Notes under the pieces: model-generated
The model's input: only the letters and a program-made list of their open reading frames with translations
Databases searched by the model: none
Told to the model about the DNA's origin: nothing
Source: Leptolyngbya iicbica LK
Lineage (GTDB): Bacteria; Cyanobacteriota; Cyanobacteriia; Phormidesmidales; Phormidesmidaceae
Reading direction: 5' to 3'
Length of the DNA stretch: 46,017 nucleotides
NCBI RefSeq assembly: GCF_004212215.1
Contig: NZ_QVFV01000002.1
Location: 1,231,306-1,277,322 of the forward strand
Shown: piece by piece, positions 2,800 through 24,723 of the stretch
Layout of the letters: each line of letters opens with the position of its first letter
How positions within the stretch are numbered: the stretch's first letter is position 1
Made by a program: the position numbers and the translations under genes

Positions 2800-2822
2800 A
2801 AGTTCTATTCTGCTTGCACGTT

Positions 2823-5530: not shown

Positions 5531-5534
5531 CCGC

Positions 5535-7334: not shown

Positions 7335-8326
7335 GCGATTGGAAAGTCTACAAGAACGACCGCGCCACCTCCAGCGAGTGGCAACTCCCCCCGCCACCCA
7401 GTTGGCGTACCTTTACCAAACCAGACTCGGCTGCCGAGAGTCAGCCGGCCCATCGTGGTGCCCTCTTCTATGCTGAAGAAGAAGAAATCAATATGGTGAA
7501 CGCGGCGTTGTACTTGCGGCGACCGCTGCTGGTCACGGGCAATCCGGGTACCGGCAAAACCTCGCTGGCCTATTCAGTCGCCTATGAGCTGGATCTGGGG
7601 GAAGTGCTGTACTGGCCGATTACGACTCGCACGACGTTGAAGGATGGCCTCTACAACTACGATGCGGTGGGCCGGCTACAAGATGCCAAGCTGAATCCGG
7701 ATGACAGCCTGAACCGGATTGGCAAATACATCACCCTCGGCCCCCTGGGAACGGCGCTACTGCCCTCAGAGCGTCCCCGGGTGTTGCTGATTGATGAAAT
7801 TGACAAAAGCGATGTGGATTTGCCAAACGATCTGCTCCATGTCTTTGAAAACGGGGAGTACACGATCCCGGAGCTGACCCGGATTGCCACCACCCAGCCC
7901 ACGGTGACGGTGCAGACCGCTTATAGCAGTGCAGATGTCGCCGATGAAGAAAGCGCTGCCTATGCCGAGGTCACAAAGGGGCGAGTGCGCTGCACCAATT
8001 TCCCCTTTATAATTCTGACGAGCAATGGCGAGCGAGACTTTCCCCCGGCGTTTTTGCGACGCTGTCTGCGGCTGGACATGGCTGAACCGCAAGAACCACG
8101 GCTGCGGCGCATTGTCGCCGCCCATTTGGGTGAGGCCGATGCAGACGAGGTGACGAAGCGGCTCAAAGCCTTTTTAGCCCAGCGCACGGCGGGCGAGATG
8201 GCGACCGATCAGTTACTCAATGCCATTTATCTGGTGAGTCAGGGGCAGCTTTCGCCCCAGGGAACAGACCGAGAGGCCTTAGTGAAGGCGATTCTCAAGC
8301 GGTTGGATAGCCGCGACGGGGTATGA
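7331..8326 (+). CDS. MoxR-family AAA+ ATPase of a VMAP ternary system
   Basis: The protein is 331 aa from the ATG at 7331, whose ATGA overlaps the preceding stop. Walker A GNPGTGKT lies at residues 70-77 and Walker B LLIDEIDKSD at about 153-162. A sensor 1-like FIILTSNGERDFPPAF and an arginine-finger candidate in LRRC follow near residues 225-240. The short proline-rich N-terminus (PPPPSW) is common in the MoxR proteins of these systems. MoxR ATPases work with vWA-domain proteins as chaperone-like activators. Here it lies exactly between the VMAP protease and the vWA-like partner, joined by 4-nt overlaps on both sides, so the three are almost certainly made and work together. ATP-dependent control of the downstream effectors is the expected role. 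Confidence 0.92.
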   Translation: MSDWKVYKNDRATSSEWQLPPPPSWRTFTKPDSAAESQPAHRGALFYAEEEEINMVNAALYLRRPLLVTGNPGTGKTSLAYSVAYELDLGEVLYWPITTRTTLKDGLYNYDAVGRLQDAKLNPDDSLNRIGKYITLGPLGTALLPSERPRVLLIDEIDKSDVDLPNDLLHVFENGEYTIPELTRIATTQPTVTVQTAYSSADVADEESAAYAEVTKGRVRCTNFPFIILTSNGERDFPPAFLRRCLRLDMAEPQEPRLRRIVAAHLGEADADEVTKRLKAFLAQRTAGEMATDQLLNAIYLVSQGQLSPQGTDREALVKAILKRLDSRDGV

Positions 8327-11004
8327 GCCAAAATGACTTTGGCCCTGAGTTTTTAGACTTCACCGATGTGCTGAAGCAGGTGAAGCTGGATCTCTGTGCC
8401 GAAGATTTGATGGATATTCTCTGGCTGGCGAACCAGACCGGAGAAATCCCATCTATCGCCCCTGACCCCACTGAAGACACCGACACCGACGTCGATGTGG
8501 TCTGGGGCGAAGACTTACCACTATCTGAATTGCCGCCGCCCGATCGCGTGGCCGTCACCCAGCGTGATTCCGCCCCAGCAGGGGAACAACAAACTCGCCA
8601 GTCGCCCGCTGGCGGCATCGCGGTATCCGCCCCTGCCGCCCCCGCGTTGCGCACTCGGCTAGAGCTGGGGCGAGCCCTGCGGCCCTTGATGCGCAAGGTA
8701 GCCGCGCTCAATCGCCAGTACCTGGACGAAGATGCAACGGCGAATCAAATCGCGGAGCAGGATGTCTGGTTGCCCGTAATGCGTCCGGCCGCAGAGCGCT
8801 GGCTGGAGCTGGCCCTAGTGGTGGAAGAAACCGACTCTATGCCGATTTGGCGATCGCTGATCCAAGAACTGCGACTACTCACCGAGCGGCAGGGCGCATT
8901 TCGGACGGTACAGTCTTGGCGGCTAACGGCTGATGAGTCGGGTCAACCGCAGCTATTTTCGGGCAATCATGCGCCTCGACCGGGCCAGCGATCGCGCAGT
9001 CCCAAAGAGCTGATCGATCCGGCGGGGCGGCGGCTGATTTTAGTGGTGAGCGATTGTACATCAGCGCTATGGCGGCAGAGCCAACTCTATCGCTGGCTAG
9101 AGCTGTGGGAAAATCATGCCCCCACGACGGTGATGCAGCTCTTGCCCCAGCGGTTATGGGAACGCAGCGCGTTGGGAGAGGGCACGCCGGTGTGGGTCAA
9201 GTCGCTTACCCCCGGCACCGTGACCGCCAACTGGCAGGTGGAGGCCCCTCTTGATTTTTTGATGGATGAATCAGATGGCGAGCCGTCACCCGCCACGCTG
9301 ACGGTGCCAGTAGTCACCGTCGAGCCAAACTCGATTAAGCCTTGGGCCAGGGTGCTCGTCGGTGCTGGGGAAGCCCGAGCAGCGGCAGTACAGTTTGATT
9401 GGAGCAATATTCCGCCCCCCCCCGCTAAAACCTCTGAGGATATGGAGCCCTTGGCGCTGGTGCGACGTTTTCGCGGGGGGGCATCGATTGTGGCCCAGCG
9501 ATTAGCGGGGATGATGGCGGCGGTGCCTGTGAGCCCGGAGATCACTGACTTACTGCGGCAGACATTGCTGCCAGAGGCGCGGCAGGTGCATGTGGCGGAG
9601 GTGTTTATGAGTGGCCTCATCCGCATGACGCGCACTGAGAAGCCGGAGGGAGGGCATAGCCAGACCTATGACTTTGTCAGTGAGAAGGTGCGGGATCTGC
9701 TAACGGATGCGGTGGATGTGCCTACGACGGAGAAGGTGTTGGATACGGTATCGGCCTATCTGTCGGAGCGGTGGGGATTGGGTACACGCACCTTCGAGGC
9801 ATTGCTGACGCCCGATCTGGAACTCAGTGAAGAGGCGGAGGGGCAGGTGTTGCCGTTTGCCTATTTGGCGCGGCGGACGTTGCAGCGCATGGGGCAAGAA
9901 TATGCCGAGCTGGTAGAACTGCTGGGGCAGCCTGAAGCCCCACAATCTATAGATGAAACGCATGCTGCTCCCACCGAAACAGAGTTTTCACCATTAAAAA
10001 CATTTGAATTTGAGGTTGCAAGATTTGTGTCCGCTACGGTCACCTTGCCAGAGCTGCGCACAAAGGAATTTGAAGTCGTCACGGTAGAGCTAGAGTCTAC
10101 AACAGCAATTCTCAAGCCATTTGAGTTTGAGACGGCAACCATCGCAAAACAAGATCAGCGCATTTTATTTGGGTTAGGGCCACAGCGAACCCGCTGGCAG
10201 ATCGAGAAGCAACAAGGACAAGGACGACAATTGGTAGAGCTGCTCGGGGATGACCTGACGCTAGAGATGGTTTGGGTGCCCAGCGGTAGCTTTATAATGG
10301 GCTCACCAACAGATGAGCCAGAACGAACGAGTGATGAAGGGCCACAGCATGAGGTAGCAGTGAGCAGCTTTTTAATAGGACGTTATCCAGTGACACAGGC
10401 ACAATGGCGCTTTGTGGCAGGTTTACAGCGCATACAGACTAAGCTAAATCCTGGGTTATCAAATAAACTCTTAAAGTTTGAGGGACATGACTTGCCTGTA
10501 ATAAAAGTTAGTTGGAATGAGGCCCAAGAATTTTGTCAGCGACTATCTGCTTACACCCAACGTGAGTATCGCATACCAAGTGAATCAGAATGGGAGTATG
10601 CCTGCCGGGCAGAGACAAAGACCCCGTTTCATTTTGGCGAGATGATTACAACTGATTTGGCTAACTATAACGGCAGTGAAGTTTATAACAATGGTCCTAC
10701 GGGGCAAAATCGCGACAAGACAACACGAGTAGGCAGTTTTCCAGCTAATAAATGGGGCATTAGCGATATGCACGGCAATGTGTGGGAGTGGTGCGAAGAT
10801 ATGTGGCATAGCAATTATGAAGGGGCACCAATTGATGGCAGTGCCTGGACTCAAAGTGATGACAAGCGACCTGTGATGCGTGGAGGTTCTTGGTTCACTT
10901 TTTCCAGAGGCTGTCGTTCTGCATATCGAGAGCCCGCTAATCGGTCTGGAGCACTAAATTATGTAGGTTTTCGAGTGTGTCTTTCGACCTCAAGCCTTTC
11001 TTAG
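8323..11004 (+). CDS. SAV_2336/vWA-like protein with C-terminal FGE-sulfatase domain
   Basis: This 893-aa protein has three parts. Residues 1-110 are a variable acidic region. Residues 110-500 match the SAV_2336-type domain (RALRPLMRKVAALNRQYLDE, then WLELALVVEETDSMPIW and LVVSDCTSALW), the vWA-like component of MoxR/VMAP systems. Residues 545-630 are a beta-rich linker with repeated FEFE and FEVVTVELE strings. Residues 640-890 form an FGE-sulfatase (SUMF1/EgtB-like) domain: MVWVPSGSFIMGSP, YPVTQAQW, SEWEYACRAE, DMHGNVWEWCEDMW and MRGGSW...CRSAYR. The stretch from about 9960 onward is visibly AT-richer than the first two-thirds, suggesting the effector module was joined later. The start overlaps the MoxR stop. 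The vWA part probably receives the MoxR signal and presents the FGE effector (inference from the known system). Confidence 0.88.
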   Translation: MSQNDFGPEFLDFTDVLKQVKLDLCAEDLMDILWLANQTGEIPSIAPDPTEDTDTDVDVVWGEDLPLSELPPPDRVAVTQRDSAPAGEQQTRQSPAGGIAVSAPAAPALRTRLELGRALRPLMRKVAALNRQYLDEDATANQIAEQDVWLPVMRPAAERWLELALVVEETDSMPIWRSLIQELRLLTERQGAFRTVQSWRLTADESGQPQLFSGNHAPRPGQRSRSPKELIDPAGRRLILVVSDCTSALWRQSQLYRWLELWENHAPTTVMQLLPQRLWERSALGEGTPVWVKSLTPGTVTANWQVEAPLDFLMDESDGEPSPATLTVPVVTVEPNSIKPWARVLVGAGEARAAAVQFDWSNIPPPPAKTSEDMEPLALVRRFRGGASIVAQRLAGMMAAVPVSPEITDLLRQTLLPEARQVHVAEVFMSGLIRMTRTEKPEGGHSQTYDFVSEKVRDLLTDAVDVPTTEKVLDTVSAYLSERWGLGTRTFEALLTPDLELSEEAEGQVLPFAYLARRTLQRMGQEYAELVELLGQPEAPQSIDETHAAPTETEFSPLKTFEFEVARFVSATVTLPELRTKEFEVVTVELESTTAILKPFEFETATIAKQDQRILFGLGPQRTRWQIEKQQGQGRQLVELLGDDLTLEMVWVPSGSFIMGSPTDEPERTSDEGPQHEVAVSSFLIGRYPVTQAQWRFVAGLQRIQTKLNPGLSNKLLKFEGHDLPVIKVSWNEAQEFCQRLSAYTQREYRIPSESEWEYACRAETKTPFHFGEMITTDLANYNGSEVYNNGPTGQNRDKTTRVGSFPANKWGISDMHGNVWEWCEDMWHSNYEGAPIDGSAWTQSDDKRPVMRGGSWFTFSRGCRSAYREPANRSGALNYVGFRVCLSTSSLS

Positions 11005-11114
11005 CACTTTGCGCTTCTGCTCTCAGCTAGCACGCAACCCATCGGATACTTAGACGATTTTGGGTATCTTGCCCTCCATTCTGTTTTCCAGCTTCTAACT
11101 ACGATCTCCATCCC

Positions 11115-12419
11115 ATGCCCGAACTCACCCTTAACCGCCAACGCTACCAAGCCCAGTGTTTTACTGAGTCTTTGGGAAATGGAATTGATTTGGAAATGAC
11201 CCTCATCCCTGCGGGTAATTTTGTCATGGGCTCCCCAGAGGATGAGCTGGAGCGGCTTGACCGCGAAGGCCCCCAGCATCAGGTAACAGTGCCAAGCTTC
11301 TTTATGGGCACATACCCGGTGACCCAGGCCCAATGGCGTGCCGTGGCAAACTTACCCCAGATAGAACTTGGGCTCAAGGCTGATCCAGCTAACTTCAAGG
11401 GTAACGAGCATCCGGTAGAGCAGGTGAACTGGCACGAAGCAATGGAGTTCTGTGCTCGACTCTCTGCCTATTCTGGTCGTTCTTATCGCTTGCCTACTGA
11501 GGCGGAATGGGAATATGCTTGCCGCGCTGGCACTAATACCCCGTTTCACTTTGGTGAAACGATTACCCCTGATCTCGGCAATTACTGCGGCATTGATCGC
11601 GAGATCCGCGGCAATAAATACAAAGGTCGTTATGGCGATGGGCCAACTGGAAAAAATCTAGAGAAAACAACTCCCGTCAATCACTTCAAAGTTGCTAACG
11701 CTTTCGGTTTATGCGATCTGCACGGTAACGCCTGGGAGTGGTGTCAAGACGTATGGCACGACAATTACGAAGGAGCACCTACTGACGGCAGTGCCTGGAC
11801 TGAGGGGGGTAGACAAGACAGGCGAGCTGTACGGGGTGGCTCATGGCTTTTCAGTCCGGGGGCTTGTCGTTCTGCGTATCGCTGCTACGATGCGCCTGGC
11901 TACGGCGACTACGACAACACTTTTCGAGTTGTTTGTAATGAGCCGCAATTACAAACAACTCAAGCGGTAGGTAGTGGCGGCGACTTTTATTTTCTATACC
12001 CGAACCGCAGACTCGATTTGACTCAGCCGCTCCATAAGGTTTTATATGTCATTTACGATGAAAGCCGTAAAAGAAAACTGCCTGGGTTTACATCTATCAA
12101 GTCCCGTCAAGTAAAACTTGAACCATTGAATCTGAATTGTGATGTGGACACCAAGCGACAAATCTGTTGGTTCCTTGAAGAGGCATTACAAAATGTTGGC
12201 AAGCATGCGATCGGAGCGACTCGTTTAGAGGTGACTGGAAAAATAGTTGATGGCTTCTACTCTCTACGGGTCAAAGACAATGGGCCTGGAATTCAATCGT
12301 CCTATGTTGGTGAGGGAACTCAAGCTTTCTACAGATTAGAGGCCAAGCTTAAAGGTAAATTTTCTCGTGTCTCCATTCCCCAGGGCGGTACGGTATGTGA
12401 GTTAACATTTCCTCTCTGA
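11115..12419 (+). CDS. FGE-sulfatase domain fused to a histidine-kinase-type ATPase domain
   Basis: This 434-aa protein begins with a full FGE-sulfatase domain (residues 18-275). It is very similar to the C-terminus of the previous gene and to the next gene: MTLIPAGNFVMGSP, YPVTQAQWRAVA, TEAEWEYACRAG, DLHGNAWEWCQDVWHD and RGGSW...ACRSAYR. Residues 320-434 form a HATPase_c domain of NarX/DesK style: N box FLEEALQNVGKHAIGATRLEV, G1 box VKDNGPGI, and a terminal GGTVCELTFPL. No phosphoacceptor histidine (HisKA) domain is visible, so it may bind ATP without classic two-component signalling. There is no good Shine-Dalgarno sequence, as with the next gene; the leader is pyrimidine-rich. The fusion is open throughout, with no stop or shift at the joint. 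Confidence 0.87.
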   Translation: MPELTLNRQRYQAQCFTESLGNGIDLEMTLIPAGNFVMGSPEDELERLDREGPQHQVTVPSFFMGTYPVTQAQWRAVANLPQIELGLKADPANFKGNEHPVEQVNWHEAMEFCARLSAYSGRSYRLPTEAEWEYACRAGTNTPFHFGETITPDLGNYCGIDREIRGNKYKGRYGDGPTGKNLEKTTPVNHFKVANAFGLCDLHGNAWEWCQDVWHDNYEGAPTDGSAWTEGGRQDRRAVRGGSWLFSPGACRSAYRCYDAPGYGDYDNTFRVVCNEPQLQTTQAVGSGGDFYFLYPNRRLDLTQPLHKVLYVIYDESRKRKLPGFTSIKSRQVKLEPLNLNCDVDTKRQICWFLEEALQNVGKHAIGATRLEVTGKIVDGFYSLRVKDNGPGIQSSYVGEGTQAFYRLEAKLKGKFSRVSIPQGGTVCELTFPL

Positions 12420-12484
12420 ACAGGTTTTTTTCGTCGCATATTCACTAATGCTGCGATTCCACGTCTCCTCTTTCTTCCTCCCCT

Positions 12485-13294
12485 ATGCCCGAACTCACCC
12501 TCCAGCGCACTCGCTACCAGGCCCAAGGCTATACCGAACCTCTGGGCGATCTTGGCCTCGACATGATGCTTATTCCCGCTGGCGAGTTTCTGATGGGCTC
12601 TCCAGCGGATGAGCCGGAGCGTCGGGATAATGAAGGCCCACAGCATCGAGTGAGCGTTCCCAGCCTTTTCATGGGGCGGTTCCCCGTGACTCAAGCCCAA
12701 TGGAAGTTTGTGGTTGGGCTACCTCAGCAGGAGCTTGAACTCAAGCCAGAGCCTTCAAGCTTTAAGGGGGGAGATCGCCCGGTAGAGCAAGTGAACTGGC
12801 ACGAAGCTGTAGAGTTCTGCGCCCGTTTGGCCGAGTACACCCAACGCCCTTATCGCCTGCCCAGCGAAGCCGAGTGGGAATATGCCTGTCGCGCGGGCAC
12901 CACCACCCCATTCCACTTTGGTGAAACCATCTCCCCTGAACTTGCGAACTACGATGGCACCTCGGCTTTTGCCGATGGCCCCAAAGGTGAGTACCGAGAG
13001 GAAACGACCTCCGTTGGCGGCTTTCAAGTCGCTAACGACTTTGGCCTATATGACATGCACGGCAACGTGTGGGAATGGTGCCAGGATGTCTGGCATAACA
13101 AGCGCGACGGCGCTCCAACCAATGGTAGTGCCTGGTCAGAGGGCGGTGACCAAAGTCGTCGAGTGGTTCATGGTGGCTCATGGCTGGGCTCTCCATGGCG
13201 CTGCCGCTCTGCTTGTCGAAGTGGATTTACGGTCACAGATCGCCTTGTCGATGCCGGTTTTCGCGTTTGTTGCTCCGCCCGAGGCTTTTCGTAG
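12485..13294 (+). CDS. Stand-alone FGE-sulfatase (SUMF1/EgtB-like) domain protein
   Basis: The 269-aa product is a single FGE-sulfatase domain. It starts with the same N-terminal string as the preceding gene (MPELTLxRxRYQAQ), followed by MMLIPAGEFLMGSP, FPVTQAQWKFV, SEAEWEYACRAGTTTPFHFG, DMHGNVWEWCQDVWH, VHGGSW...CRSACR and a final FRVCC. It is clearly a tandem duplicate of the FGE part of the upstream gene. Classical FGE converts a sulfatase cysteine to formylglycine, and no sulfatase is encoded here. In conflict systems this fold is regarded as an effector of uncertain chemistry. The first cysteine of the FGE active-site pair seems absent (SWLGSPWRC), leaving only the second. It is the last gene of the plus-strand operon and converges with the next gene. 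Confidence 0.9.
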   Translation: MPELTLQRTRYQAQGYTEPLGDLGLDMMLIPAGEFLMGSPADEPERRDNEGPQHRVSVPSLFMGRFPVTQAQWKFVVGLPQQELELKPEPSSFKGGDRPVEQVNWHEAVEFCARLAEYTQRPYRLPSEAEWEYACRAGTTTPFHFGETISPELANYDGTSAFADGPKGEYREETTSVGGFQVANDFGLYDMHGNVWEWCQDVWHNKRDGAPTNGSAWSEGGDQSRRVVHGGSWLGSPWRCRSACRSGFTVTDRLVDAGFRVCCSARGFS

Positions 13295-13356: not shown

Positions 13357-14613
13357 TCAGCATTCTGGCCGCTCCGACAATAAGCACTGCGGCGGCTTCA
13401 GCCACACCGACTTGCCCTTAAATGTCAGCCGCACCACCGTCCACCCTGGAGCCCTCGCCTGCAACAACCGGGGCGTATTCGCCCATACCTTCACCTGACC
13501 CGTACACACCCCCAAAGCCTCACCCGCTTCCCGCATCGATAACAGGCCATACAACTCCACGGCTGTGCGCGGCGGGTTCGGGGCAGCCGTAGCCGCTGGA
13601 TACAAAAACCGCGTCCGATTCGCCGGATGCTCAGCCACCTGCCAGCCCGGAAACAACTGCTCAAATTTCCCCTGACGAACGTAAACGCCCAATGTCAGCA
13701 GTGCGAGGTTTGTTAGGTTGGCAAAGTCTCGCATCGATAAACTTTGAGGCGGTGGTGCCCAAACCTGAGCCCCCGGCCGTCGAAAAATGAGCCAAGCCAC
13801 ATGGGGATGTTTCACCCGCTTGGCGTAGAACCCAGGAAACTTCTGGGCAAAGCTCCCGGCTTCCAATAACCGCCGAATTTGCCCGCTCGATAGAGGACGC
13901 GCCTGCTGAGCAAAATCCTTCACCGTGAACAACTCAACCGCATCTTTCAGTCGCACAAACCGAAAGTTGATCCCATTGAGACCCACAAAACTCCAGCCCG
14001 CAAACTGACTTTCAAAGCCCCGTCTACCGGCTTGCGCCGCTGTCATCACGTCAGCTGTCGTCAGCCCTTGCAGCCGCGCAAACTGCTCAGTGGTAAGAAA
14101 GTCATCGGGTATCGGGGCGTCGTCCTCACGAGCCCCCAGATCCTCAAGGCGGCCAAACCAATACTCCAAAGGAGCATAACTGTGGGGACGACGAGTAAAG
14201 AACTCCCACCCCTCAAACCGCTCCCGGAAAGCTCCGTGCCCCTGCCGGATCGCGCTCTGCACCTGCGCGACGTCAACCTGATGTCGCTGAGCAAAATCTT
14301 CAAGCGTCAGCAGCCACACCCCATAGCGATGCAGTTCTTGTGGATGCAACACCCCGTAAAACGTAAAGAAGCGCTGGTAAGGGACGCACTGTCCCGATTT
14401 AGTCTTGTCAATTTCCCAAAAGTCACAGTGCTCCGCAAAGTGTTCGCGGAAATGCTCAATCCCCCGAGCGGCATGAAGGTTGACCGTGCCACCGCCGATT
14501 CCAGCCAGTTGCCCAAATTCTCTGGCCGGAATCCCCGCTTTGATAAACGGCGTCCCCATTTTGGCCTCAAACAATGCCACCTGCCATTCGTCATCCCAAC
14601 TCTCAGGGCACAT
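13357..14613 (-). CDS. Unknown protein with six HTH-like/FPGW repeat units
   Basis: I do not recognise this product of about 418 aa. It starts at the ATG at 14613, whose codon overlaps the end of the upstream gene (TATGTGCCCTGA), so the pair is translationally coupled; a longer in-frame start at 14760 only reads over that gene. The chain divides into about six units of 60-90 aa. Each has a helix-turn-helix-like stretch (pattern LTxxxFAxxxGxxxxxV, then about 8 residues and G) followed by FxxxFxGWxFxx and a beta-like tail with aromatic/Arg residues. Examples are RQGHGAFRERFEGWEFF, AGRRGFESQFAGWSFV, RQGKFEQLFPGWQVA and a degenerate last copy, LQARAPGWTVV. The architecture suggests a modular nucleic-acid-binding protein (inference). 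No enzyme motif, signal peptide or membrane helix is seen. Confidence 0.75.
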   Translation of the reverse strand: MCPESWDDEWQVALFEAKMGTPFIKAGIPAREFGQLAGIGGGTVNLHAARGIEHFREHFAEHCDFWEIDKTKSGQCVPYQRFFTFYGVLHPQELHRYGVWLLTLEDFAQRHQVDVAQVQSAIRQGHGAFRERFEGWEFFTRRPHSYAPLEYWFGRLEDLGAREDDAPIPDDFLTTEQFARLQGLTTADVMTAAQAGRRGFESQFAGWSFVGLNGINFRFVRLKDAVELFTVKDFAQQARPLSSGQIRRLLEAGSFAQKFPGFYAKRVKHPHVAWLIFRRPGAQVWAPPPQSLSMRDFANLTNLALLTLGVYVRQGKFEQLFPGWQVAEHPANRTRFLYPAATAAPNPPRTAVELYGLLSMREAGEALGVCTGQVKVWANTPRLLQARAPGWTVVRLTFKGKSVWLKPPQCLLSERPEC

Positions 14614-15286
14614 AAGGCGGTTCCTCCACTTGACGGCAATACACGACCTTTTTCCCTTGCTGACGGAAGCTCCAGCCTGGGAAACGTTGCTCAAAACAGC
14701 CAGAGCCTTTTTGGGTAAAGGTCCGAACAGTTTGGGCGCAGGCACCCACCACATCAGCAAACCGATAAATCGTCAGAGCCGTTTCATCGAGGGGGGAATC
14801 CGGTTGCTCGCCAATGTCCTCTACCGGCCCAAACCAACGCGCTATCGAGGAGCCAATTGCATACTCCAGCTCAATAAAGTCCCAGCCGGGAAACTGTTGC
14901 CGAAATACTGAGTGCCCCTTACGCGCCGCGAGCCGCACCCGCCAGTCCTTGACCTCTTGATGCTGACAAAACTGCGGTAAAGACATTAACCCAGGCAGTG
15001 GCGGCTTCGTCGCTGGTGGCCGAATGGCACCTCCAAATGTGTAAACCCGCTGAGCCACTTGAAACTTTGAATCGCTCACCTGATGAAACGAGCATTGCTT
15101 GCCAAAGCGCTGTTGGAATTCTTCTAAACCTGCCGCAGCGTGCAGGTTTACCTGCCTGATGTTGACTCCAGCCAGAGCCGCAAACTCCTGGGCGGTGAGT
15201 CCTTCGCGATAGCCAATTATCCCAAGTCTGGCCTTGACCAGAGCCGCCTGCCAGTCAGGCGTCCAGCTGTTGGGGGAAGACATCAT
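14603..15286 (-). CDS. Unknown protein with three HTH-like/FPGW repeat units
   Basis: This 227-aa protein is a paralogue of the next gene in the operon; both begin with a unit of the form SWxxxWQxAL...AKxG. Unit 1 has LTAQEFAALAGVNIRQVNLHAAAG followed by FQQRFGKQCSFHQV. Unit 2 has LMSLPQFCQHQEVKDW, then FRQQFPGWDFIEL. Unit 3 has YRFADVVGACAQTVRTF, then FEQRFPGWSFRQQ. Each unit therefore pairs a probable helix-turn-helix with an aromatic FPGWxF turn. The ATG at 15286 is followed by a second ATG. The gene is divergent from the large recombinase at 15527, with a shared 240-bp AT-rich control region, so it may regulate or assist recombination (inference from position only). Confidence 0.75.
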   Translation of the reverse strand: MMSSPNSWTPDWQAALVKARLGIIGYREGLTAQEFAALAGVNIRQVNLHAAAGLEEFQQRFGKQCSFHQVSDSKFQVAQRVYTFGGAIRPPATKPPLPGLMSLPQFCQHQEVKDWRVRLAARKGHSVFRQQFPGWDFIELEYAIGSSIARWFGPVEDIGEQPDSPLDETALTIYRFADVVGACAQTVRTFTQKGSGCFEQRFPGWSFRQQGKKVVYCRQVEEPPYVP

Positions 15287-15526
15287 AGATACTCGCTACT
15301 ATCACCACAGGGTTTCTAAAAACGATTCTAATCCCTAAATCGCAATAGTTTCACCCATTCAAGAGTTAGATAAAAGGATTTTCTATATATAGCCATTTGT
15401 TCGACAAAATCGCTCAAATGGAAAGATACAAGGAGTTTGAAGCGTTATCGTTTTTTGTTATTATCTCAATGTTTAGGTCGATAATATTGCAATAACTCCA
15501 AACAACATAGATAAACCACAAAATCG
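15287..15526. promoter_or_regulatory. Divergent control region between FPGW-repeat genes and recombinase
   Basis: This AT-rich 240-bp intergenic region must hold promoters for both directions. It contains TATATATAG at about 15385, a perfect 10-bp palindrome TATTGCAATA at 15485-15494, and a weak pair TTGTTA...GATAAT (19-bp gap) upstream of the recombinase start. These are suggestive only. Confidence 0.35.
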
Positions 15527-17482
15527 ATGCAGACAATTTACGCCACGCTTCAGTACTACGAAAAGAGCCTGAGGCCGAGCGATCAACAGCATTTCAGGGA
15601 TTTAATGTCTGTCCTCCGTCGTTACTGGATGGCAGGTCTAGGCTTCCCTCGCTTAACCTCAGCAAGAGCGACCCAAGCCGATAAGGCGAATACAGAATAT
15701 GCGCTCAGTCATCTCCCTGTCGAACGTTTATATGACTGGGAAGTGATTCTAGAAAAAGGCTTTGATGTCGAACAAAAGGAAAAGAAAAAGCGCTCTGCTC
15801 ACCGTTCTCATGTTCGACGTTTTGTGAGTTTTTGCTTCAAAAATGGCATCCTCCAAGATCCCCAAAAACTCACTGAAAAACAGAAGCGAATTCCTCGCCG
15901 CCCGGAGAAGATTGGGAAACGCCCCAAACTCAGGCCTGGGCGCATCGACCTCAGCAAATTTGCGCTAACAGCGACTGAGTTAACTGTTCATCAAGCTCAG
16001 TCTCTGAAGGAATACCGTGAGTATCTGGAAAAAACTCGGCAGCGGCAGCGCCGGAAGAAGTCGGTTCGCGAGACAACCAGCGACATGCACCGGCGATCAG
16101 TGTGTCGGTTTTGGGGCTTTTTGCATCGTGAGCGGGGCATTCCCCTTGAGGCACTGACCTTTGACTCCATCATTGGCCGTGCCGACTGCCAAGATCAGCA
16201 GGCAACCCAACAAGTTATCGAAGCGTTTGAAGACTTGGCCGCAGACTACGCCGAGTTTATTAGTGCGCGGGGAGCCGTCAGCAGCACGATCAAGAGTGAT
16301 TTGGCGAGACTGACTCGGCTCTGTCAGTATCAATATCGCGGTCAGTATCTCGACAAGCATGGGAATGATATTCCGGTGATGAGCTGCTTGCGCGAACTCA
16401 TCAACTACTACAAAGAACTTTCCAGCAATGAATTGGCCGTGATTCCCCTGGATCTGAAGTGGCTGGACTTGCCGCAAGTCATTAACCAGGTTACCCTCCC
16501 CGCTTTTCAGTGGACTGAGCATCGCACGGTGCATTGGTCAAAACGAAAAAATACGGCGATCGCCGATAGTTTTGCCGAAGCTATTCTGTTGGCTGTCTTT
16601 ACCCTGATGCCGCCGCGTCGCTCTGGCGAATGGTGCCGTGCCAAAGTTGCCATGGCCTGTGACCTCAAAAGCCGACCAGCCGATCTACGGGAGGAGGAAT
16701 GGATTTGGCCCTTGCCGGAAGACCGCCGGAGTAAGGAAGAGATTAAGTGCAGCTATCTCACCCGTCAGTATGTCCACGTTGACCCCATCACGGGAGAAAA
16801 GTTTGGGGCCTATCTCGGCAGCATTCCGCCCGCAAACCGTTACTTAGAACGGGTGCCCATCTGGTTTAAGGACACCCCAGCGCGGGCGGCTAAGAGCGGT
16901 GACTCCCACAAAGACCAGCGCATCACGGTGTTGAACCGGCAGGTTTATCGGGGCAAAACCCTATATGACTTTCTGGAAGCGTATCTGCTGGGGTGTTGGC
17001 GCGATCAACGGGGCAACTGGGTGAGTTTAGGTCGCAGTTTAGCGCGGCCCAACGAGCAGTTTCAATACTATGAACTGCGTTCCTCTCTACTAAAGCCTCA
17101 AATCACCAGTGGGGAACAACCCGCTGGCTGGCTCTTTCTGGGTCCGAAGTCCGGCAAACCTATTCGCACTAATGACTTTGGCACGAAATTTGCGCTCGTG
17201 TTTAACCGCATGGCTATGCATGCTCAGATTGGTCGTCGCTACATGAACCCCCACCTGATGCGATCGGTTTATGCCGTTCACATGATTGATACCAGCAGTT
17301 CTCTGGCGGAGCTTAAGTCATTGGCAACCGCGATGGGGCATACGCTAGAAACCCTGGAGCGGATCTATGACAAGCGCCGCCCGGATCAAAAGATGCGGTT
17401 AATTGAGGTGAAGGTACAGAAAACCATTGACGACATCTGCGGCGCTGCCACGACTTGGGATTTGCAGGGTAAGAGTGAGTGA
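15527..17482 (+). CDS. Large divergent tyrosine recombinase/integrase
   Basis: The 651-aa protein carries a C-terminal tyrosine recombinase domain. The candidate catalytic residues are an arginine in MPPRRSGEW near 362, His and Arg of NPHLMRSVY near 575-578, His of AMGHT near 603, and the nucleophile Tyr of ERIYDKR near 613. The N-terminal 350 residues are long, basic and helical, rich in Arg/Lys (EKKKRSAHRSHVRRF; RQRQRRKKSVRE), and probably bind DNA. At roughly twice the length of a normal phage integrase, it resembles the large integrase-like proteins seen in bacterial islands. It is divergent from the FPGW-repeat genes. It may be the recombinase of the element marked by the tRNA-Val scar, but it is not adjacent to it. 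Confidence 0.85.
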   Translation: MQTIYATLQYYEKSLRPSDQQHFRDLMSVLRRYWMAGLGFPRLTSARATQADKANTEYALSHLPVERLYDWEVILEKGFDVEQKEKKKRSAHRSHVRRFVSFCFKNGILQDPQKLTEKQKRIPRRPEKIGKRPKLRPGRIDLSKFALTATELTVHQAQSLKEYREYLEKTRQRQRRKKSVRETTSDMHRRSVCRFWGFLHRERGIPLEALTFDSIIGRADCQDQQATQQVIEAFEDLAADYAEFISARGAVSSTIKSDLARLTRLCQYQYRGQYLDKHGNDIPVMSCLRELINYYKELSSNELAVIPLDLKWLDLPQVINQVTLPAFQWTEHRTVHWSKRKNTAIADSFAEAILLAVFTLMPPRRSGEWCRAKVAMACDLKSRPADLREEEWIWPLPEDRRSKEEIKCSYLTRQYVHVDPITGEKFGAYLGSIPPANRYLERVPIWFKDTPARAAKSGDSHKDQRITVLNRQVYRGKTLYDFLEAYLLGCWRDQRGNWVSLGRSLARPNEQFQYYELRSSLLKPQITSGEQPAGWLFLGPKSGKPIRTNDFGTKFALVFNRMAMHAQIGRRYMNPHLMRSVYAVHMIDTSSSLAELKSLATAMGHTLETLERIYDKRRPDQKMRLIEVKVQKTIDDICGAATTWDLQGKSE

Positions 17483-17532
17483 GCGCAATGAAAAGCTTCG
17501 ATGCCTTAACTCATGGTTAAAACTACTGCATT

Positions 17533-17760
17533 TTAAGGCGCATAAGGCAGCACCAGTAAGGTATTTCCACGACGACCAAAGACAGTAACGGGAGTGCCCG
17601 AAGGCAATACATACCGACCATCGGGAATACAGAGACGAGCTGTCCAACTAACACCCATGACCTTAACGCGACCGGGCAGATGCCCTGCAATGGTTTGCTC
17701 CACTTCGCCATGCATGGTTTGTTCAAATAACTCAGCTTGAGTGGTTTCGAGAATGTACAT
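17533..17760 (-). CDS. Small NfeD-like OB-fold protein
   Basis: This 75-aa protein matches the C-terminal OB-fold of NfeD proteins: GRVKVMGVSWTARL, then IPDGRYVLPSGTPVTVFGRRGNTLLVLP. There is no membrane segment or protease domain, so it is the soluble NfeD domain alone, preceded by a short helical lead (ETTQAELFEQTMHGEVEQTI). A strong Shine-Dalgarno GGAGG lies about 6 nt before the ATG. NfeD proteins partner stomatin/SPFH membrane proteins; none is present here. It runs in the same direction as the secreted-protein gene to its right, about 200 bp away. Confidence 0.72.
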   Translation of the reverse strand: MYILETTQAELFEQTMHGEVEQTIAGHLPGRVKVMGVSWTARLCIPDGRYVLPSGTPVTVFGRRGNTLLVLPYAP

Positions 17761-17828
17761 AATCGCCTCCAGGTTTGACGGTGGATTAGCTGATGCTAGA
17801 CATAATTGGCTCGTCAGCGAGCTTCAGC

Positions 17829-17874
17829 GCACCAGTTGTAATTAGGAACATGCACCAGTTGTAATTAGGAACAT
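17829..17874. repeat. Perfect 23-bp tandem duplication
   Basis: Two exact head-to-tail copies of a 23-bp unit (beginning GCACCAGTTGTAATTAGG) occupy 17829-17851 and 17852-17874 in the gap between the NfeD-like and secreted-protein genes. The next bases start like a third copy (GCA) and then diverge. No function is evident; it may be a slippage duplication or a paired binding site. Confidence 0.9.
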
Positions 17875-17967
17875 GCAAAACCAGTACCGGGCATAAAGGC
17901 AGCGACAGCAGGTTTTGCTTTGTCAAGGAAGAAAGGTAGATCGCACCCTGAATCTTCTTGTGCGGTC

Positions 17968-18534
17968 TTAGAAACGACGAGGACTGACAAAGGGGGCCAG
18001 GAGATTTTGGGCTTCTTGATCGATTGCATTTTCGATAGAAGTCCGGTTGGCCTCTAATGCCGCCGCAATCTGTCGGCTAGCCCGTCGCCGAGCTCGCCGG
18101 CAAGCAGGCCGAAAACGACCGCAGCGGCTAACATGCAGGCTATAGCTGTCATAATCAAAGCCCAGGTCGTTACCAATCCGGAATTTGATGTTTAAGCGGA
18201 CGCTTCGTGAACCAATAATTGCCGGAGCACGCCCGTAAAGATTGACCTGAAGAACACCTTCTCGGACGTTTAATTCGGAGACGGCGCGGTTCCAACGCAG
18301 ATTACTAGGGCTGTTGCGTCGAGCTAGATCAAGGGCGAAAGCCTCAATGCGCTGAGAGCTTCGTTGCAATTGACCAGAGAGGATATCGAGAGGATTGGTT
18401 TGGGCTACCAAAACTTCTGATGTCACTGGGCTAACGGGCATTGCTTGGGCTTTTTGCATCAAAGGGGTACCCATCACTGCGGACAACGCCGTTGAAGCGG
18501 CAAAGAAAAGCGCCAGATATTTACGAGTAGTCAT
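17968..18534 (-). CDS. Secreted hypothetical protein
   Basis: The 188-aa product starts with a clear signal peptide (MTTRKYLALFFAASTALSAV, with candidate cleavage after AQA near residue 31), so it should be exported. The mature part has a helical region (ILSGQLQRSSQRIEAFALDL), a beta-rich centre (VLQVNLYGRAP; VRLNIKFRIGND) with two cysteines (VSRCGRFRPACRRARRR) that could form a disulfide, and a C-terminal helix. I recognise no family. AGAGGA precedes the ATG in a context (TCAATTAAGAGGACT...ATGAC) that closely resembles the leader of the small membrane gene at 28107. Both genes are divergent from an AAA-type gene across the same palindrome, which suggests common control. Confidence 0.75.
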   Translation of the reverse strand: MTTRKYLALFFAASTALSAVMGTPLMQKAQAMPVSPVTSEVLVAQTNPLDILSGQLQRSSQRIEAFALDLARRNSPSNLRWNRAVSELNVREGVLQVNLYGRAPAIIGSRSVRLNIKFRIGNDLGFDYDSYSLHVSRCGRFRPACRRARRRASRQIAAALEANRTSIENAIDQEAQNLLAPFVSPRRF

Positions 18535-18713
18535 GATTTGAGTCCTCTTAATTGAGTGAGTTGGACATCCCGAGTTAGAAACCTGAAGTTCCGCCTCGGG
18601 ACATCTCGTTTATCACCCAGGGCGTGGCTGTGAAGGCGAAATGAAAGGGAAGACCAACTCCAAAGTGCTTAACCTGCACGGACGACCAAACCAGCGTGGA
18701 GTTTTGTGATGCC

Positions 18714-18731
18714 TGTGAGAAATCCCTCACA
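18714..18731. promoter_or_regulatory. Palindromic operator candidate, copy 1
   Basis: TGTGAGAAATCCCTCACA is an inverted repeat (TGTGAG/CTCACA) in the divergent region between the secreted-protein gene and the AAA gene at 18838. Nearly the same sequence occurs at 28242-28259 in the equivalent position of the second locus. In both, a CTAAAA...AGAGAGA string follows within about 50 bp. It resembles a CRP half-site pair, but the spacing between TGTGA and TCACA is 8, not the canonical 6. Conservation at two paralogous loci argues for a real binding site. Confidence 0.6.
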
Positions 18732-18837
18732 AATCTGGAACGGCTTCTAGTCAGGGCTAAAAAAAGAGAGACAACATTTCTGAGATCAGGCGTGTTGTCT
18801 TGTAGATGCTTCTAGCGCCCCTTAGTCTTTGGACACC

Positions 18838-20139
18838 ATGAATCGTCAAGAATTTGAGACATCCTTTGAGTCCCTGACGCCAAGACAAAAAGATGTTCTG
18901 TGGCCGTTTTTGGCCTTTCAGACCGACGAAGAGATTGCGACTGAACTGCATTGCACTCCAGCCAATGTGCGACACCACATTGCCAACGTCTGCAAGCGAT
19001 TTGGCTACACCAACGATGAAGGAGAGTCTTACTCTTACCGCCACGATCTGGTCGAAGCGTTTATTCAGCATCAGCCAAAGAAAGTGAGTACACAATGGCA
19101 GGCCAAACTGCTCGCCGCGCAGCCAGAAGAACCCGAATTTCCAGGGCGGCCATTGTTGGTGGATAGCCGTTACTACTTAGAGCGGCCCCCAGCAGAGCAG
19201 AGAGCCCTCAAAGTGTTGAAGCCGGGGGCGCTAGTACGGGTTCGTGGTCCCCGGAAAACGGGCAAAACCTCGTTGCTTTATCGCACGCTGCACCAGGCGA
19301 GAGAATACGGCTGCCAAACGGCAGCGGTGAAGCTATATCGGGCTGGCAGCGGCATCTTGGGAGATGTGCGGCGGTTCTTGCAGTGGTTCTGTTTGCAAAT
19401 CAGTGACGAAGTGGGTTTGCCTCCCAAGCTGGAGGACTATTGGAGCGATTTGCGGGGCGATGCCTCTAGCTGCTCGCAATATTTGCAGTCCTACCTGTTG
19501 GACCAGCTAGAGCAACCTATCGTCATCGGCATTGATGAAGCGGATTTGTTGTTTGAATACCCCGCCACTGCGGAGACCTTTTTTCGTTTGGTGCGGGGCT
19601 GGTCAGAGGAAGCGAAAAGCTCTGAACGCTGGCAGCAGTTTCGTCAGGTGGTGGTTTATGCCACGGAGGTCTATATCGATTTTGACCTCAATCAGTCGCC
19701 GTTTAATGTGGGTACGCCTATTAAGCTGGCGGCCTTTGGAGCTGACCAAGTGCAAGAGTTGGCCTGGCGCTATGGGTTAAAAACCTTCACCATCGATCAA
19801 GCCAATGACCTAATGGGTTTGGTGGGGGGACAGCCACACCTGATTCAGTTGGCGCTCTATCACCTGTACGATGGCTGGACGTTTGAGCAGGTGATGATCA
19901 CTGCAACTAGCCAAACGGGCATCTATAGCAATCATTTGCAGGCACTGATGGATAAGCTGACAGCTCATGATGACTTGGCTGAGGCCTTTAAGACGGTAGT
20001 TGCTGCGCCATCAAAACCAGTGACTTTGGCTGCAAAGCCTGCCAAGCAGCTAGAAGGACTGGGCCTAGTGAAACGGAATGACACCGAGGTTGAGCTCAGT
20101 TGCCAGCTCTATCGCCAGTATTTTGGCACGCATCTGTAG
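18838..20139 (+). CDS. AAA-like ATPase with N-terminal LuxR-type HTH
   Basis: This is a protein of about 433 aa from the ATG at 18838 (an in-frame TTG lies three codons upstream). Residues 8-65 form a LuxR/GerE-type helix-turn-helix (LTPRQKDVLWPFLAFQTDEE, then IATELHCTPANVRHHIANVC). Residues 100-430 form an AAA-like NTPase of the cyanobacterial AAA_35 type: Walker A RGPRKTGKTSLL near 135-145, Walker B IVIGIDEADLLF near 230, a VGGQPHLIQLALYHL motif and a winged-helix-like end. Such proteins are STAND-like signalling ATPases, often paired with effectors in cyanobacterial conflict loci. It is followed about 110 bp later by a longer AAA/WD40 protein with the same ATPase type, so the two may cooperate. 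Confidence 0.85.
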   Translation: MNRQEFETSFESLTPRQKDVLWPFLAFQTDEEIATELHCTPANVRHHIANVCKRFGYTNDEGESYSYRHDLVEAFIQHQPKKVSTQWQAKLLAAQPEEPEFPGRPLLVDSRYYLERPPAEQRALKVLKPGALVRVRGPRKTGKTSLLYRTLHQAREYGCQTAAVKLYRAGSGILGDVRRFLQWFCLQISDEVGLPPKLEDYWSDLRGDASSCSQYLQSYLLDQLEQPIVIGIDEADLLFEYPATAETFFRLVRGWSEEAKSSERWQQFRQVVVYATEVYIDFDLNQSPFNVGTPIKLAAFGADQVQELAWRYGLKTFTIDQANDLMGLVGGQPHLIQLALYHLYDGWTFEQVMITATSQTGIYSNHLQALMDKLTAHDDLAEAFKTVVAAPSKPVTLAAKPAKQLEGLGLVKRNDTEVELSCQLYRQYFGTHL

Positions 20140-20248
20140 AGGTTGAGCGAGACCTAAAGGCAGATTTTGGGTTCTCAATAACACTGTGCTGGATTCCCAA
20201 TACTCACTCTAATCAGGCTGACTGTTCATTAAGCAACCCCTTCCAACA

Positions 20249-23200
20249 ATGACAATCCCCAATTATGACTATGAATTTCAGGCGGGTGGCAGCCTCGCCG
20301 CCGATGACCCTAGCTATGTGGAGCGAGAGGCCGACGAGGCGCTTTATCGAGCCATCAAAGACCGTAAGTTTGCCTATGTCTTTAACTGTCGGCAAATGGG
20401 CAAGTCGAGTTTGCGGGTACGCACCGAAACGCGGTTGAGATCGCAGGATTACTGCTGTGCCACGATCGATCTCAGTGCCTTCGGGGTTGAGGAAGTCTCA
20501 GCGGCCCAGTGGTATCGCACTCTCATTGGGGAACTGAATCGTCGTTTAGGAGACTTGCTCTCTCCCCAGGTTCTTGATCGCTGGCTAGAAGAACAGCGCG
20601 AAGTTGCCCCCATTTATCGGCTCGAAAGATTTGTCGAAGATGTGGTGCTGGCTTGCATCACCGACCAGCCTATCGTCATTTTTGTGGATGAAATTGACAC
20701 GGTGCTGTCGTTGACATTTCCGGCTAACGACTTTTTTGCTTGGATTCGCTCGTGTTATAACCGGCGGGCCGATGAACCGATTTATCGGCGTCTGACTTTT
20801 GTGCTGTTGGGGGTCACAACTCCATCACAACTGATTCAAGATGTGACACGCACGCCGTTTAATATTGGTCAGGCAATCGAGCTGACGCCTTTGGCTTTGG
20901 CCCGCGCCACACCTAAGCTGGCGGCGGGACTGGCCGGTTGGGTGGCAGACCCATCGCAAGTATTAGCAGAGATTTTTGAGTGGACGGGAGGGCAACCCTA
21001 CCTGACCCAGCGACTCTGTAAGGAAGTGCATGAAGCCGCAATGGAGACCGAGAGCCAGCCCTGGATTCAGGCGGGCGAGGAGTCGGCGATGGTGACTCGC
21101 CTGGTGGAGCAACGAATCATTGAGCACTGGGAAGCTCAGGATGACCAGGATCACTTGAAGACAATTCGCAAACGGCTGTTGCAGCGGGAGCAACTGGCCA
21201 GTCGGCTGTTGGGAGAGTATGAAAACATTTTGCAGGGGGCCGTGGTGCCTAAGCGCAATATTGCCGACCATCGCGAGTTGCGGCTGGCGGGGCTGGTGGT
21301 GAGTCGGAATAACCATTTGCAAGTGTTTAACCGCATTTATGCCCAAATTTTTGATGCCGTATGGGTGCAGCAGATGTTGGCTAGCTTGCGCCCCTATGCA
21401 GAAGATTTTCATGCTTGGACGGTTTCCAATTTTATCGATGAGTCTTATTTGTTACAGGGACAAGACTTAATTGATGCTGAGGCTTGGTCCAAAGATAAAA
21501 GCTTAAGTGCCTTGGACGATCGTTATTTGCGGGAAAGCCAAGCTCTGGAAAACCGTAAAGTACGACTCGCTTTGGAGCAAATGGCTACTCAACTCAATGA
21601 GAACATTGAGGAACGACAAGCGAAAATTCAAGAAATTGAGATCCAACGGCAGGAACTCGAAAGTCAAAATCAGGAAAGCCAAAAAAAGCTCCAGCGGCGA
21701 TCAGTGTGGGCCACAGGGTTGCTAATTGCTTCAGTGATCGGGGGGGGATTAGCGCTTGGCACCTATTCACAGTTGGGAAGCGCCCAAGCAGAATTGCAAG
21801 CGGCACGAGAGGAGACCCAAAGAGCTATAGATGAAGCCCAAGGGGCTGATCAGCAACTTACAGAGAGCCAGCAGCGCTTACAGGAGAATGAAACCCGCTT
21901 AGAGGAACTGGAAGAAGCTGAAAAAACAGCACAGGCAACGGCACAAGCGGCTGAACAGCAGCGGCAGCAAGCCGAAAGGCAACAGCTGGAAGCAGTAGCT
22001 CAAGCTAGAAAGGCAAACGCCGAGGCCGAGGCGGCCCAAGTGGAAAAAGGGGAGGCGCAGAAAGTTAGCACATTAACCCGCCGAGAAGCGGAGATATACC
22101 AGCAAGTGAAACAGCTCGAATTAGATGGGGTAGCGGTCCGGAGCATCGGTATCAGGACGCCAATTGGGGCTTTAGCTTCGGCAACCGCGTTAAGCATGAG
22201 CATCAGCACACTTACCGAAGAGCTTATAGAAATCTGTCGGCAGCTAGGAAAAGATGACTGCGACCATAAACTACTGGCTCAAGAGCCAGCGAAAGCCTTA
22301 AAAGCTCTAGTCAACCGCACACGGCATCAGATCCCCCTGCAAAGCCATAGGGGCGAGGTTAATCACGCGGTGTTTAGCCCTAATGGTGAGCTTATTGTCA
22401 CGGCTTCTAAAGATGGCACGGCAAGGGTGTGGGCTCTCGATGGCAATGAAGTCACCATTCTTAAAGGTCATGAGGACGAGGTCGTTCGTGCAGTGTTTAG
22501 CCCTAATGGTGAGCGTATTGTCACGGCTTCTAAAGATGGCACGGCAAGGGTGTGGGCTCTCGATGGCAATGAGGTTACTGTTTTAAGAGGGCACAGCCAA
22601 GATGTTCATCACATCAGCAGCGGTGAACGCATCGTCACTGCATCAAAGGATGGCACGGCACAAGTATGGTCGTTCAATGGTAGCTCCATTAACACTCTAA
22701 GAGGCCATGGAAACGATGTTGTTCACGCGGATTTTAGCCCTAATGGAGAGCGCATCGTTACTGCATCTTGGGACGGAACGGCGCGAGTATGGTCTCTTGA
22801 AGGGAATGAAGCCATTGAAGTCGCCACCCTAGGAAGTCATGAAGACGCAGTAGTTCACGCGGATTTTAGCCCAGACGGTAAGCGCATCGTTACTGCATCG
22901 AGGGACGGAACGGCGCGAGTATGGTTACTCGATAGTAATGAAGTCACTGAAGTCGCTGCCCTAGGAAGTCATGAAGACGCGGTAGTTCACGCGGATTTTA
23001 GCCCAGACGGTAAACGCATCGTTACTGCATCGAGGGACGGAACAGCGCGAGTATGGTCCCTCGATGACAATGAAGCCACTGAAGTCGCTACCTTACAAGG
23101 TCACAGTGCTTGGGTAGTTCATGCGGATTTTAGTCCTGATGGAGAAAACATCGTTACTGCATCAAAAGATGGTACAGCACGGATATGGTCTATTGATGAC

Positions 23201-24340: not shown

Positions 24341-24444
24341 GTACCTTTCCAGATGAGTCCTGTAAATCCTGAAATCTGTGCGTCGCTCCACTGAAGGTAT
24401 ACGGCTTTTCCATCATTCCATCTCCGTTACCGACGAACAGCAAG

Positions 24445-24644: not shown

Positions 24645-24649
24645 GGGGC

Positions 24650-24720
24650 TGCAAAATGCCCCCAACTTCGGCACCCGAATGACATCAACTTCGGCACCTA
24701 AATAACGCCAACTTCGGCAG
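24650..24720 (+). repeat. IS21 left end with three transposase-binding boxes
   Basis: Three copies of a CAACTTCGGCA box occur at about 24663-24674, 24685-24698 and 24708-24720, directly before istA. Two boxes separated by about 10 bp match the right end in inverted orientation. Confidence 0.8.
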
Positions 24721-24723
24721 GTC

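Follow-up and report, generated by a model that had tools for sequence, protein, structure and literature searches.

RdfS, Xis and BldC are described as winged helix-turn-helix (wHTH) proteins that line up head-to-tail along DNA, distorting its shape while frequently showing little preference for sequence (PMC11963761, PMC5859096). RdfS is described there as controlling excision and promoters alike (PMC11963761), and BldC as binding direct repeats head-to-tail with distortion of the DNA (PMC5859096). The length of the filaments that such directionality factors and nucleoid-like regulators form is set by cooperativity and by the DNA. In TraN of plasmid pIP501, the N-terminal domain resembles Tn916 Xis and the C-terminal half resembles BldC (PMC10877727). 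Here we describe a locus of the cyanobacterium Leptolyngbya iicbica LK in which three or six predicted units of this kind are joined in one chain, encoded beside a large tyrosine recombinase. The locus lies in a stretch of 46,017 nucleotides (hereafter the window; positions 1,231,306 to 1,277,322 of the 1.57-Mb contig NZ_QVFV01000002.1). Our preferred reading, held with a probability of roughly 0.55, is that both array proteins assist the divergent recombinase as DNA-architectural accessory factors.

Repeat architecture and predicted fold of the array proteins

Both array genes lie on the minus strand. Array gene 1 (14603-15286) encodes a protein of 227 aa with three predicted winged-helix units, A-B-C, and array gene 2 (13357-14613) a protein of 418 aa with six, A-B-C-D-E-F. 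The assignments come from the open reading frames (ORFs) and from held-out matches of a unit hidden Markov model (HMM), and for array gene 2 also from AlphaFold. The mechanical ORF list gives array gene 2 as 13357-14760. We took the ATG at 14613 as its start, which is most likely the true one because the resulting N-terminus parallels that of array gene 1; the two genes then overlap by 11 bp.

The repeat unit of both proteins is about 60 aa long. For the unit HMM, the array proteins of four loci were cut into units, one truncated unit of G031 was excluded, and three loci were used for training in each run. Besides the window, the loci are those of Halomicronema sp. CCY15110 (G004, of the same genus as the window's genome), Phormidium tenue (G023, also labeled L036) and G031 (also labeled L035), each pair of labels being treated as one genome. 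With the window held out, the model found six units in the 418-aa protein (residues 28-411, independent E-values of 5.6e-6 to 2.2e-18) and three in the 227-aa protein (residues 29-90, 100-159 and 170-221, 1.9e-12 to 4.9e-19). In none of the four hold-out runs did a shuffled copy (20 per protein) score better than E 0.12 or an unrelated ORF better than E 0.08; other array genes within the background set matched as expected and were excluded from the latter figure. The initial annotation, made from the sequence alone, had described two coupled paralogues with three and six copies of a helix-turn-helix (HTH)-like unit, and the held-out model recovers all nine. That the proteins consist wholly of units holds for nearly their whole length, with about 27 N-terminal residues of each falling outside.

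The same annotation placed the motif FxxxFPGWxF in every unit, which proved too strict. FPGWxF is exact in two of the nine window units and FPGW in three, with the variants FEGWEF, FAGWSF, FPGFYA and APGWTV in the remaining ones; in the first unit of both proteins the motif reads F(G/A)xxCxF. Across 16 aligned units the glycine and the later phenylalanine are retained in at least 90%, and the consensus starts xLTxxxFAxLxG. The design of the unit is kept while the copy number varies, as was first noted. The array homologue of Phormidium tenue has six units in the order A-B-C-D-A-B (by reading, with support from the held-out HMM), so array units get reshuffled.

Such differences in copy number and order (3; 6; A-B-C-D-A-B) are what one would expect of modular sequence readers, in which every unit would recognise a few bases and the whole chain would pick a target site for the recombinase. 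The recognition helices of the window's own units are also little alike (63/324 positions identical). However, orthologous units also differ most in this helix, with 34/81 positions identical vs 64/99, 87/132 and 50/102 in the other parts, and therefore no base code is conserved between the two genomes. Units of the MerR, BldC and Xis type, moreover, are reported to make few base contacts or to read DNA indirectly (PMC5859096, PMC11963761). The weak conservation of this helix, as far as the alignments go, fits indirect readout better than a base code. The modular nucleic-acid reader of the initial annotation thus appears very unlikely.

AlphaFold2, run on the 418-aa array with six sequences, gave a mean predicted local distance difference test score (pLDDT) of 74.9. 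The model shows a repeat of two to three helices followed by two strands that form a two-stranded wing. The HTH-like units of the initial annotation are thus seen as a repeated winged helix in the prediction. On a second look by structural comparison, unit 5 aligned with the MerR-family protein HiNmlR on DNA (Z 5.1, 42 residues, 1.9 A), and unit 6 with Pukovnik Xis (Z 4.6, 45 residues, 2.0 A) and BldC (Z 4.5, 45 residues, 1.9 A). TraN (Z 4.9, 58 residues, 3.4 A), SoxR and MtaN are also among the matches, the whole group spanning Z 3.9-5.1. Because unrelated winged helices score equally, we read these matches as a winged helix with no more than a lean to the MerR/Xis/BldC type. Foldseek with the whole array found no match at E 0.001 in the PDB and a viral library.

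Sequence comparisons mix the same families with unrelated ones. Against PDB sequences the unit profile reached MerR, Pukovnik Xis, BldC and P2 Cox at sub-significant E 0.19-1.5, in a list of 28 matches at E 0.07-3 that includes the lac repressor, ribosomal L5 and unrelated enzymes. The array proteins gave no Pfam match above the cut-off (best AbiEi_4 at E 0.0084 and HTH_17 at E 0.092) and no NCBIfam match. PHROGs, which has no cut-off, gave a Cox-like excisionase at E 0.0032 for the 418-aa protein and 0.19 for the 227-aa protein, over short stretches and sub-significant. In PADLOC, mad1 matched the 418-aa protein at E 1.9e-4 through a short piece of unit 4; in neither scan did a stretch pass by itself. 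When single units were scanned, HTH_17, MerR and excisionase families came mixed with unrelated ones (best Pfam E 0.024); in PHROGs, excisionase families appeared at E 0.017 and 0.078 and one unit matched an HTH family at 1.8e-4. The prediction gives no new fold but a winged helix, inclined towards the MerR/Xis/BldC kind, followed by a long linker that contains FPGW. The proposal of an undescribed family stands insofar as no curated cut-off was passed in Pfam or NCBIfam, and fails for the predicted fold.

The divergent recombinase, its partners and the intergenic region

The gene divergent from the arrays (15527-17482, plus strand) encodes a protein of 651 aa with the catalytic set R365, K456, H576xxR579, H605 and Y614. 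The R-K-HxxR-H-Y set, H576 and H605 included, is invariant in the four recombinases of the array clade, and R365, K456, R579 and Y614 are invariant across all eight aligned large recombinases. There is a weak, sub-threshold match to NCBIfam NF001399, a tyrosine recombinase (E 3.2e-5, 23.3 bits, cut-off 279). A Pfam scan of the protein gave no match, and a PDB sequence search with the recombinase profile gave nothing at E 1; for distant relatives, Phage_integrase matches were obtained in L056 (E 3.2e-5) and L058 (E 5.4e-5), both under the cut-off. Judged by its residues, the 651-aa protein is a tyrosine recombinase, and the initial annotation of an oversized, divergent one is borne out by the complete catalytic set and, weakly, by the sub-threshold NF001399 match. 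Downstream of the gene, the 23-bp sequence CACCAGTTGTAATTAGGAACATG occurs in direct tandem, two copies, at 17830-17875 (by eye).

Array relatives occur in four of 59 genomes, the window's own counted. The four belong to one cyanobacterial family, with Halomicronema placed in Nodosilineales. Among 386 evenly drawn genomes of cyanobacteria, with at most the best four candidates per genome scored, the array profile found the window's own genome alone. The unit profile, built from these loci, gave 25 matches at E <=1.5e-5, all in the four known genomes of 63, the next best being at E 0.00126. Over the 386 genomes, among the best 16 candidates at most per genome, its best matches beyond the own genome were two short partial ones at E 7e-4 in 53-aa frames. 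These searches of cyanobacteria returned arrays at four loci. The 418-aa array had no match at E 0.01 in plasmids and phages, and pattern scans of viral contigs with the recombinase and array alignments confirmed no relative.

Recombinase matches at E 0.001 are found in nine of 63 genomes of the family. The close copies among them belong to the four array genomes (100, 80 and 48% identity, and two pieces of 56 and 37% in G023, where by reading the gene is broken by an insertion sequence). A scan of a species-genome collection with the recombinase alignment, which hinges on two short peptide patterns, found four loci, three of them already known and one new, L034 (Nodosilinea WJT8-NPBG4; 17.5 kb of its 49.2-kb contig were covered). 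The arrays are divergent from the recombinase in four of the five loci, and the array gene of G031 runs off the contig end. A constant pairing, raised in the initial annotation, is seen at all four array loci, while L034 has a recombinase without arrays in the 17.5 kb covered. The three-gene recombination module proposed there agrees with the coupling in four of five loci, but a further small recombinase with its site may belong to it, lying close by in three of the four other loci and 15 kb off in the window. Around its array-less recombinase locus, at 71-3104 and about 8400-10300, L034 also carries Mu/TnsB-type transposase and TniB genes and, as judged by eye, a gene resembling TniQ and a repeat array of CRISPR-like form.

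Between the window and CCY15110, the ratio of nonsynonymous to synonymous substitution rates (dN/dS) is 0.27 for the 418-aa array, 0.11 for the 227-aa array, 0.08 for the large recombinase and 0.06 for the small recombinase, with dS of 1.2-2.1, near saturation, for both arrays and the large recombinase. By these substitution patterns, the array and recombinase genes are under purifying selection.

The divergent intergenic region (15287-15526) is a putative region of binding and of recombination or regulation. Its G+C content is 33% (33-38% over the four loci) vs 52.6% window-wide; two of the 763 tiles of the window are equally low, counting tiles over the region itself. The palindrome CTATATATAG (15383-15392 in the window) occurs four times in 195,904 bases of these loci, always in this region. 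Each array locus has one copy, and its distance to the start codon of the array gene is 97-99 bp in all four. A degenerate dyad, TCAATG...TTGCAA (15466-15492), is a candidate core or operator site. Its spacing to CTATATATAG is 73, 73, 72 and 72 bp in the four loci, and its distance to the recombinase start varies (61, 61, 121 and 116 bp). The support for this dyad is its position and conservation only. L034 is about 92% identical to G023 through the recombinase, and the homology is lost at TTTAGG inside the dyad. This breakpoint fits a site-specific exchange at the dyad but, standing alone in a region of 300 bp, is weak evidence.

Distant relatives of the large recombinase on ten cyanobacterial plasmids (22-27% identity, 429-735 aa as annotated) have a different kind of neighbor. 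In eight of the ten records, a count that overstates their independence because some are near-identical, a gene of 61-98 aa resembling ribbon-helix-helix (RHH) proteins precedes the recombinase gene in the same orientation, at a distance of 258-923 bp; its RHH matches (E 0.0005-0.0091) stay under the Pfam cut-off. In L140 there is just a divergent gene that matches DUF6364 weakly, and beside the large recombinase of plasmid L143 no RHH-like gene was found. The RHH family also adjoins three chromosomal large recombinases (L023 in the window's genome, L027 and L028), as detected by a held-out profile that recovers all 11 genes at E <=1.6e-6 in leave-one-out runs; L029 has a similar-looking gene downstream (by eye). 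Run against 1402 ORFs from stretches of the array clade, this profile scores no better than E 0.096. The comparison suggests that the arrays may have replaced the RHH partner of large recombinases in this clade. More broadly, it suggests that the accessory protein of a large recombinase can be swapped, on cyanobacterial plasmids as well as in islands; no description of this was found in the titles and abstract openings surveyed.

In L055-L059, L139, L141 and L142, where a plasmid pairs a very large tyrosine recombinase with a small RHH-like protein, the annotation is mostly hypothetical protein. The large recombinase of L023 (8506-10317), about 7 kb before the window, has KEFR as its HxxR box, and its RHH-like gene is divergent.

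Proposed role of the arrays and its alternatives

In the accessory role proposed here, each unit would be a winged helix of the Xis/MerR/BldC type, three or six of them joined in one chain, and because the joining is covalent the length of the nucleoprotein filament would be fixed by the gene. By binding the AT-rich DNA of the divergent region, from CTATATATAG to the dyad, the chains would bend or wrap it and so set the direction or efficiency of recombination as well as the expression of both genes. In favor of this role are the nine units recovered with the window held out, the predicted winged-helix repeat and its lean to MerR, Xis and BldC, the divergent pairing with the recombinase in four of five loci, the purifying selection, the fixed spacings around CTATATATAG in an AT-rich region, the small RHH-like gene beside other large recombinases and the published action of wHTH directionality factors (PMC11963761, PMC5859096). 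A bolder version holds that the arrays are an undescribed class of accessory protein, Xis/BldC-like filaments of genetically fixed length that measure out the DNA from CTATATATAG to the dyad like rulers and have replaced the RHH partner in this clade. In this version, the spacing of 72-73 bp is about seven turns, and six units at one per helical turn would cover about 63 bp. We advance it tentatively, as a possibility and not an expectation.

The arrays might instead be purely transcriptional regulators that bind the divergent promoter and repress their own operon and the recombinase, with no role in strand exchange. The divergent genes share the 240-bp AT-rich region, the unit is MerR-like, and the distance of CTATATATAG is constant to the array start and not to the recombinase start, as for an operator or a -10-like element. 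Six tandem units, however, would exceed the need of a simple repressor. The two readings also overlap because RdfS is reported to perform both jobs (PMC11963761). A purely regulatory role seems conceivable but somewhat unlikely.

Several observations weigh against the accessory role. Neither the boundary of an element nor an empty site or an excised form was detected. Tested at single loci, inverted repeats including the dyad are not above shuffles at any locus, an AT periodicity of 10-11 bp is absent in the intergenic region (401 of 1000 shuffles reach it), and the dyad distance of 116 bp rests on an internal start chosen for the G031 recombinase. The array loci known are four only, and the 17.5-kb stretch of L034 contains no arrays beside an open recombinase frame. 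On the side of the structures, the predicted template modeling score (pTM) of the array model is 0.49, so the relative placing of its units is not usable. The structural comparison covered mainly units 3, 5 and 6, its Z of 4-5 falls within the range flagged as cautionary by the comparison tool, and unrelated winged helices reach equal Z (ESCRT-II 4.8, RNA polymerase III 4.7). The AlphaFold model of the recombinase is poor (pLDDT 46.9) and not usable, and the 651-aa protein is linked only weakly to known integrases. Some of the plasmid RHH records are near-identical (L058 and L142).

A second tyrosine recombinase bears on a further alternative. The small gene at 32612-33241 (plus strand) encodes a TnpI-like protein of 209 aa that matches Phage_integrase at E 2.4e-40. 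Just upstream, a palindrome with 14-bp arms around a 6-bp spacer (32541-32574) is a candidate core site, and a third half-site (32639-32652) lies inside the start of the gene. The arms are near-identical, and the spacer is different in each of four loci; the third arm copy is found 78 bp further on in all four loci with a small recombinase gene. The distance from the large recombinase to the palindrome is 15.06 kb in the window (the stretch 17483-32540), 42 bp in L034, 687 bp in G004 and 697 bp in G031. The small recombinase thus lies directly downstream of the large one in L034, at <=0.8 kb in G004 and G031 and at 15 kb in the window, and in G023 a decayed palindrome alone remains where its site would be. 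Plasmid relatives (L133, L134 and L138) adjoin Tn3-family transposase genes, and a site that looks similar by eye accompanies two of them. Just upstream of the module in G004 there is, by reading, a ParD/ParE-like pair, a position matching that of toxin-antitoxin pairs in Tn3 elements (PMC7157771). Because of the palindrome with its third half-site, the relatives beside Tn3 transposases and the ParD/ParE-like pair, the small recombinase and its palindrome are most likely a TnpI/irs-type module. The irs of Tn4430 has two direct-repeat copies (PMC7157771), whereas one was found here. The dS of the small recombinase between the window and CCY15110 (0.60 vs 1.70 for the large one) suggests partly separate histories of the two genes, as far as substitution rates can tell.

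The whole arrangement could then be a heteromeric cointegrate resolvase like TnpS/TnpT of Tn4651-type transposons, inside a Tn3-like element. Its layout equals that of tnpS and tnpT with rst between them (PMC7157771, and the pWW0 genes). The TnpI-like recombinase with an irs-like site stands near the large one in three of the four other loci, and the homology of L034 and G023 stops inside the dyad, as after a site-specific deletion. This stop is, however, a single event with a chance of about one in ten of that position. Moreover, no Tn3 transposase was found in 13 stretches around the loci, searched with two cyanobacterial ones, and TnpT is made of KfrA_N and a coiled coil, unlike the arrays. 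We consider such a resolvase unlikely. A homology of the arrays to TnpT was rejected, as TnpT matches KfrA_N, the unit profile finds nothing in TnpT and the best BLASTP match is at E 0.5. TnpS and the large recombinase showed no similarity in a direct comparison.

Besides genes for a LuxR-AAA_35 protein and for two giant proteins of the AAA_35-WD40 type, the 15-kb stretch holds a Mu-type transposase element. The element (24647-27288, Mu-transpos_C_2/rve) has a second copy, 99.96% identical, just before the window (L023 14117-16758). Capture of the stretch as a cassette at the palindrome was considered and nothing is claimed; the paired site occurs once in the window's genome. The 14-mers of the arms, with one mismatch allowed, occur nine times elsewhere in this genome vs two for the reversed control, which is unexplained.

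Upstream of the arrays (5508-13294) are genes for a VMAP-C/VMAP-M1 protein with a trypsin domain and for an AAA ATPase, an FGE-sulfatase gene and then, judged from their translations, two more FGE-like genes. This conflict-type cluster is syntenic in Halomicronema CCY15110. Downstream, on the minus strand (33441-45920), are genes that match mad8, mad7, mad6 and mad5 of the MADS defence system (E 1.3e-44, 9.7e-142, 1.8e-116 and 4.7e-71). One may ask whether the arrays are regulators or DNA sensors of this defence island, next to the recombinase by accident. Besides the conflict genes on one side and the MADS genes on the other, the weak mad1 stretch in unit 4 and the synteny of the conflict cluster together with the arrays would speak for it. 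Since the arrays stay with the recombinase in G023 and G031 despite different neighbors, we regard it as most improbable.

Comparison with known systems

Our search of the literature found no tandem wHTH partner of a recombinase, with subscription journals mostly outside its coverage, and nothing relevant on recombinases of defence islands. Gamma-mobile-trio (GMT) elements combine a large tyrosine recombinase and two partner genes, and they carry defence cargo.

TnpS/TnpT/rst shares with the locus a tyrosine recombinase, a divergent helper and the site between them (PMC7157771). The large recombinases on plasmids also have an adjoining gene for a DNA-binding protein, which is RHH-like instead of a wHTH array. 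TraN, in the text available to us, is likewise a two-part wHTH protein; it differs in having two halves only and in being a conjugation regulator, with no recombinase partner mentioned there (PMC10877727). BldC is a MerR-like wHTH protein without an effector domain to which unit 6 aligns, whereas it is a 68-residue, non-tandem regulator, and no partnership with a recombinase is described in the part of its report accessible.

Xis, RdfS and P2 Cox resemble the arrays in the predicted winged-helix unit, in a gene beside a tyrosine recombinase (four of five loci for the arrays) and in an AT-rich adjoining region. They have one wHTH per chain and oligomerise head-to-tail on DNA (PMC11963761), whereas the arrays have three and six per chain, two paralogues and an FPGW linker. 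The arrays also differ from curated excisionase and HTH families, to none of which they match above the cut-off.

Found beside a recombinase, the arrays suggest a rare helper system for site-specific DNA cutting and rejoining. If the accessory role is true, natural chains of three and six units would allow the length, bending and spacing of a filament to be changed unit by unit, and the role of filament length in tyrosine recombination would become directly testable. We call the tandem wHTH architecture new within a known kind because no curated cut-off is passed, no such partner was found in the literature and TraN with its two halves exists. By analogy, the arrays would work like a wHTH accessory factor, and the tandem architecture would be what is new.

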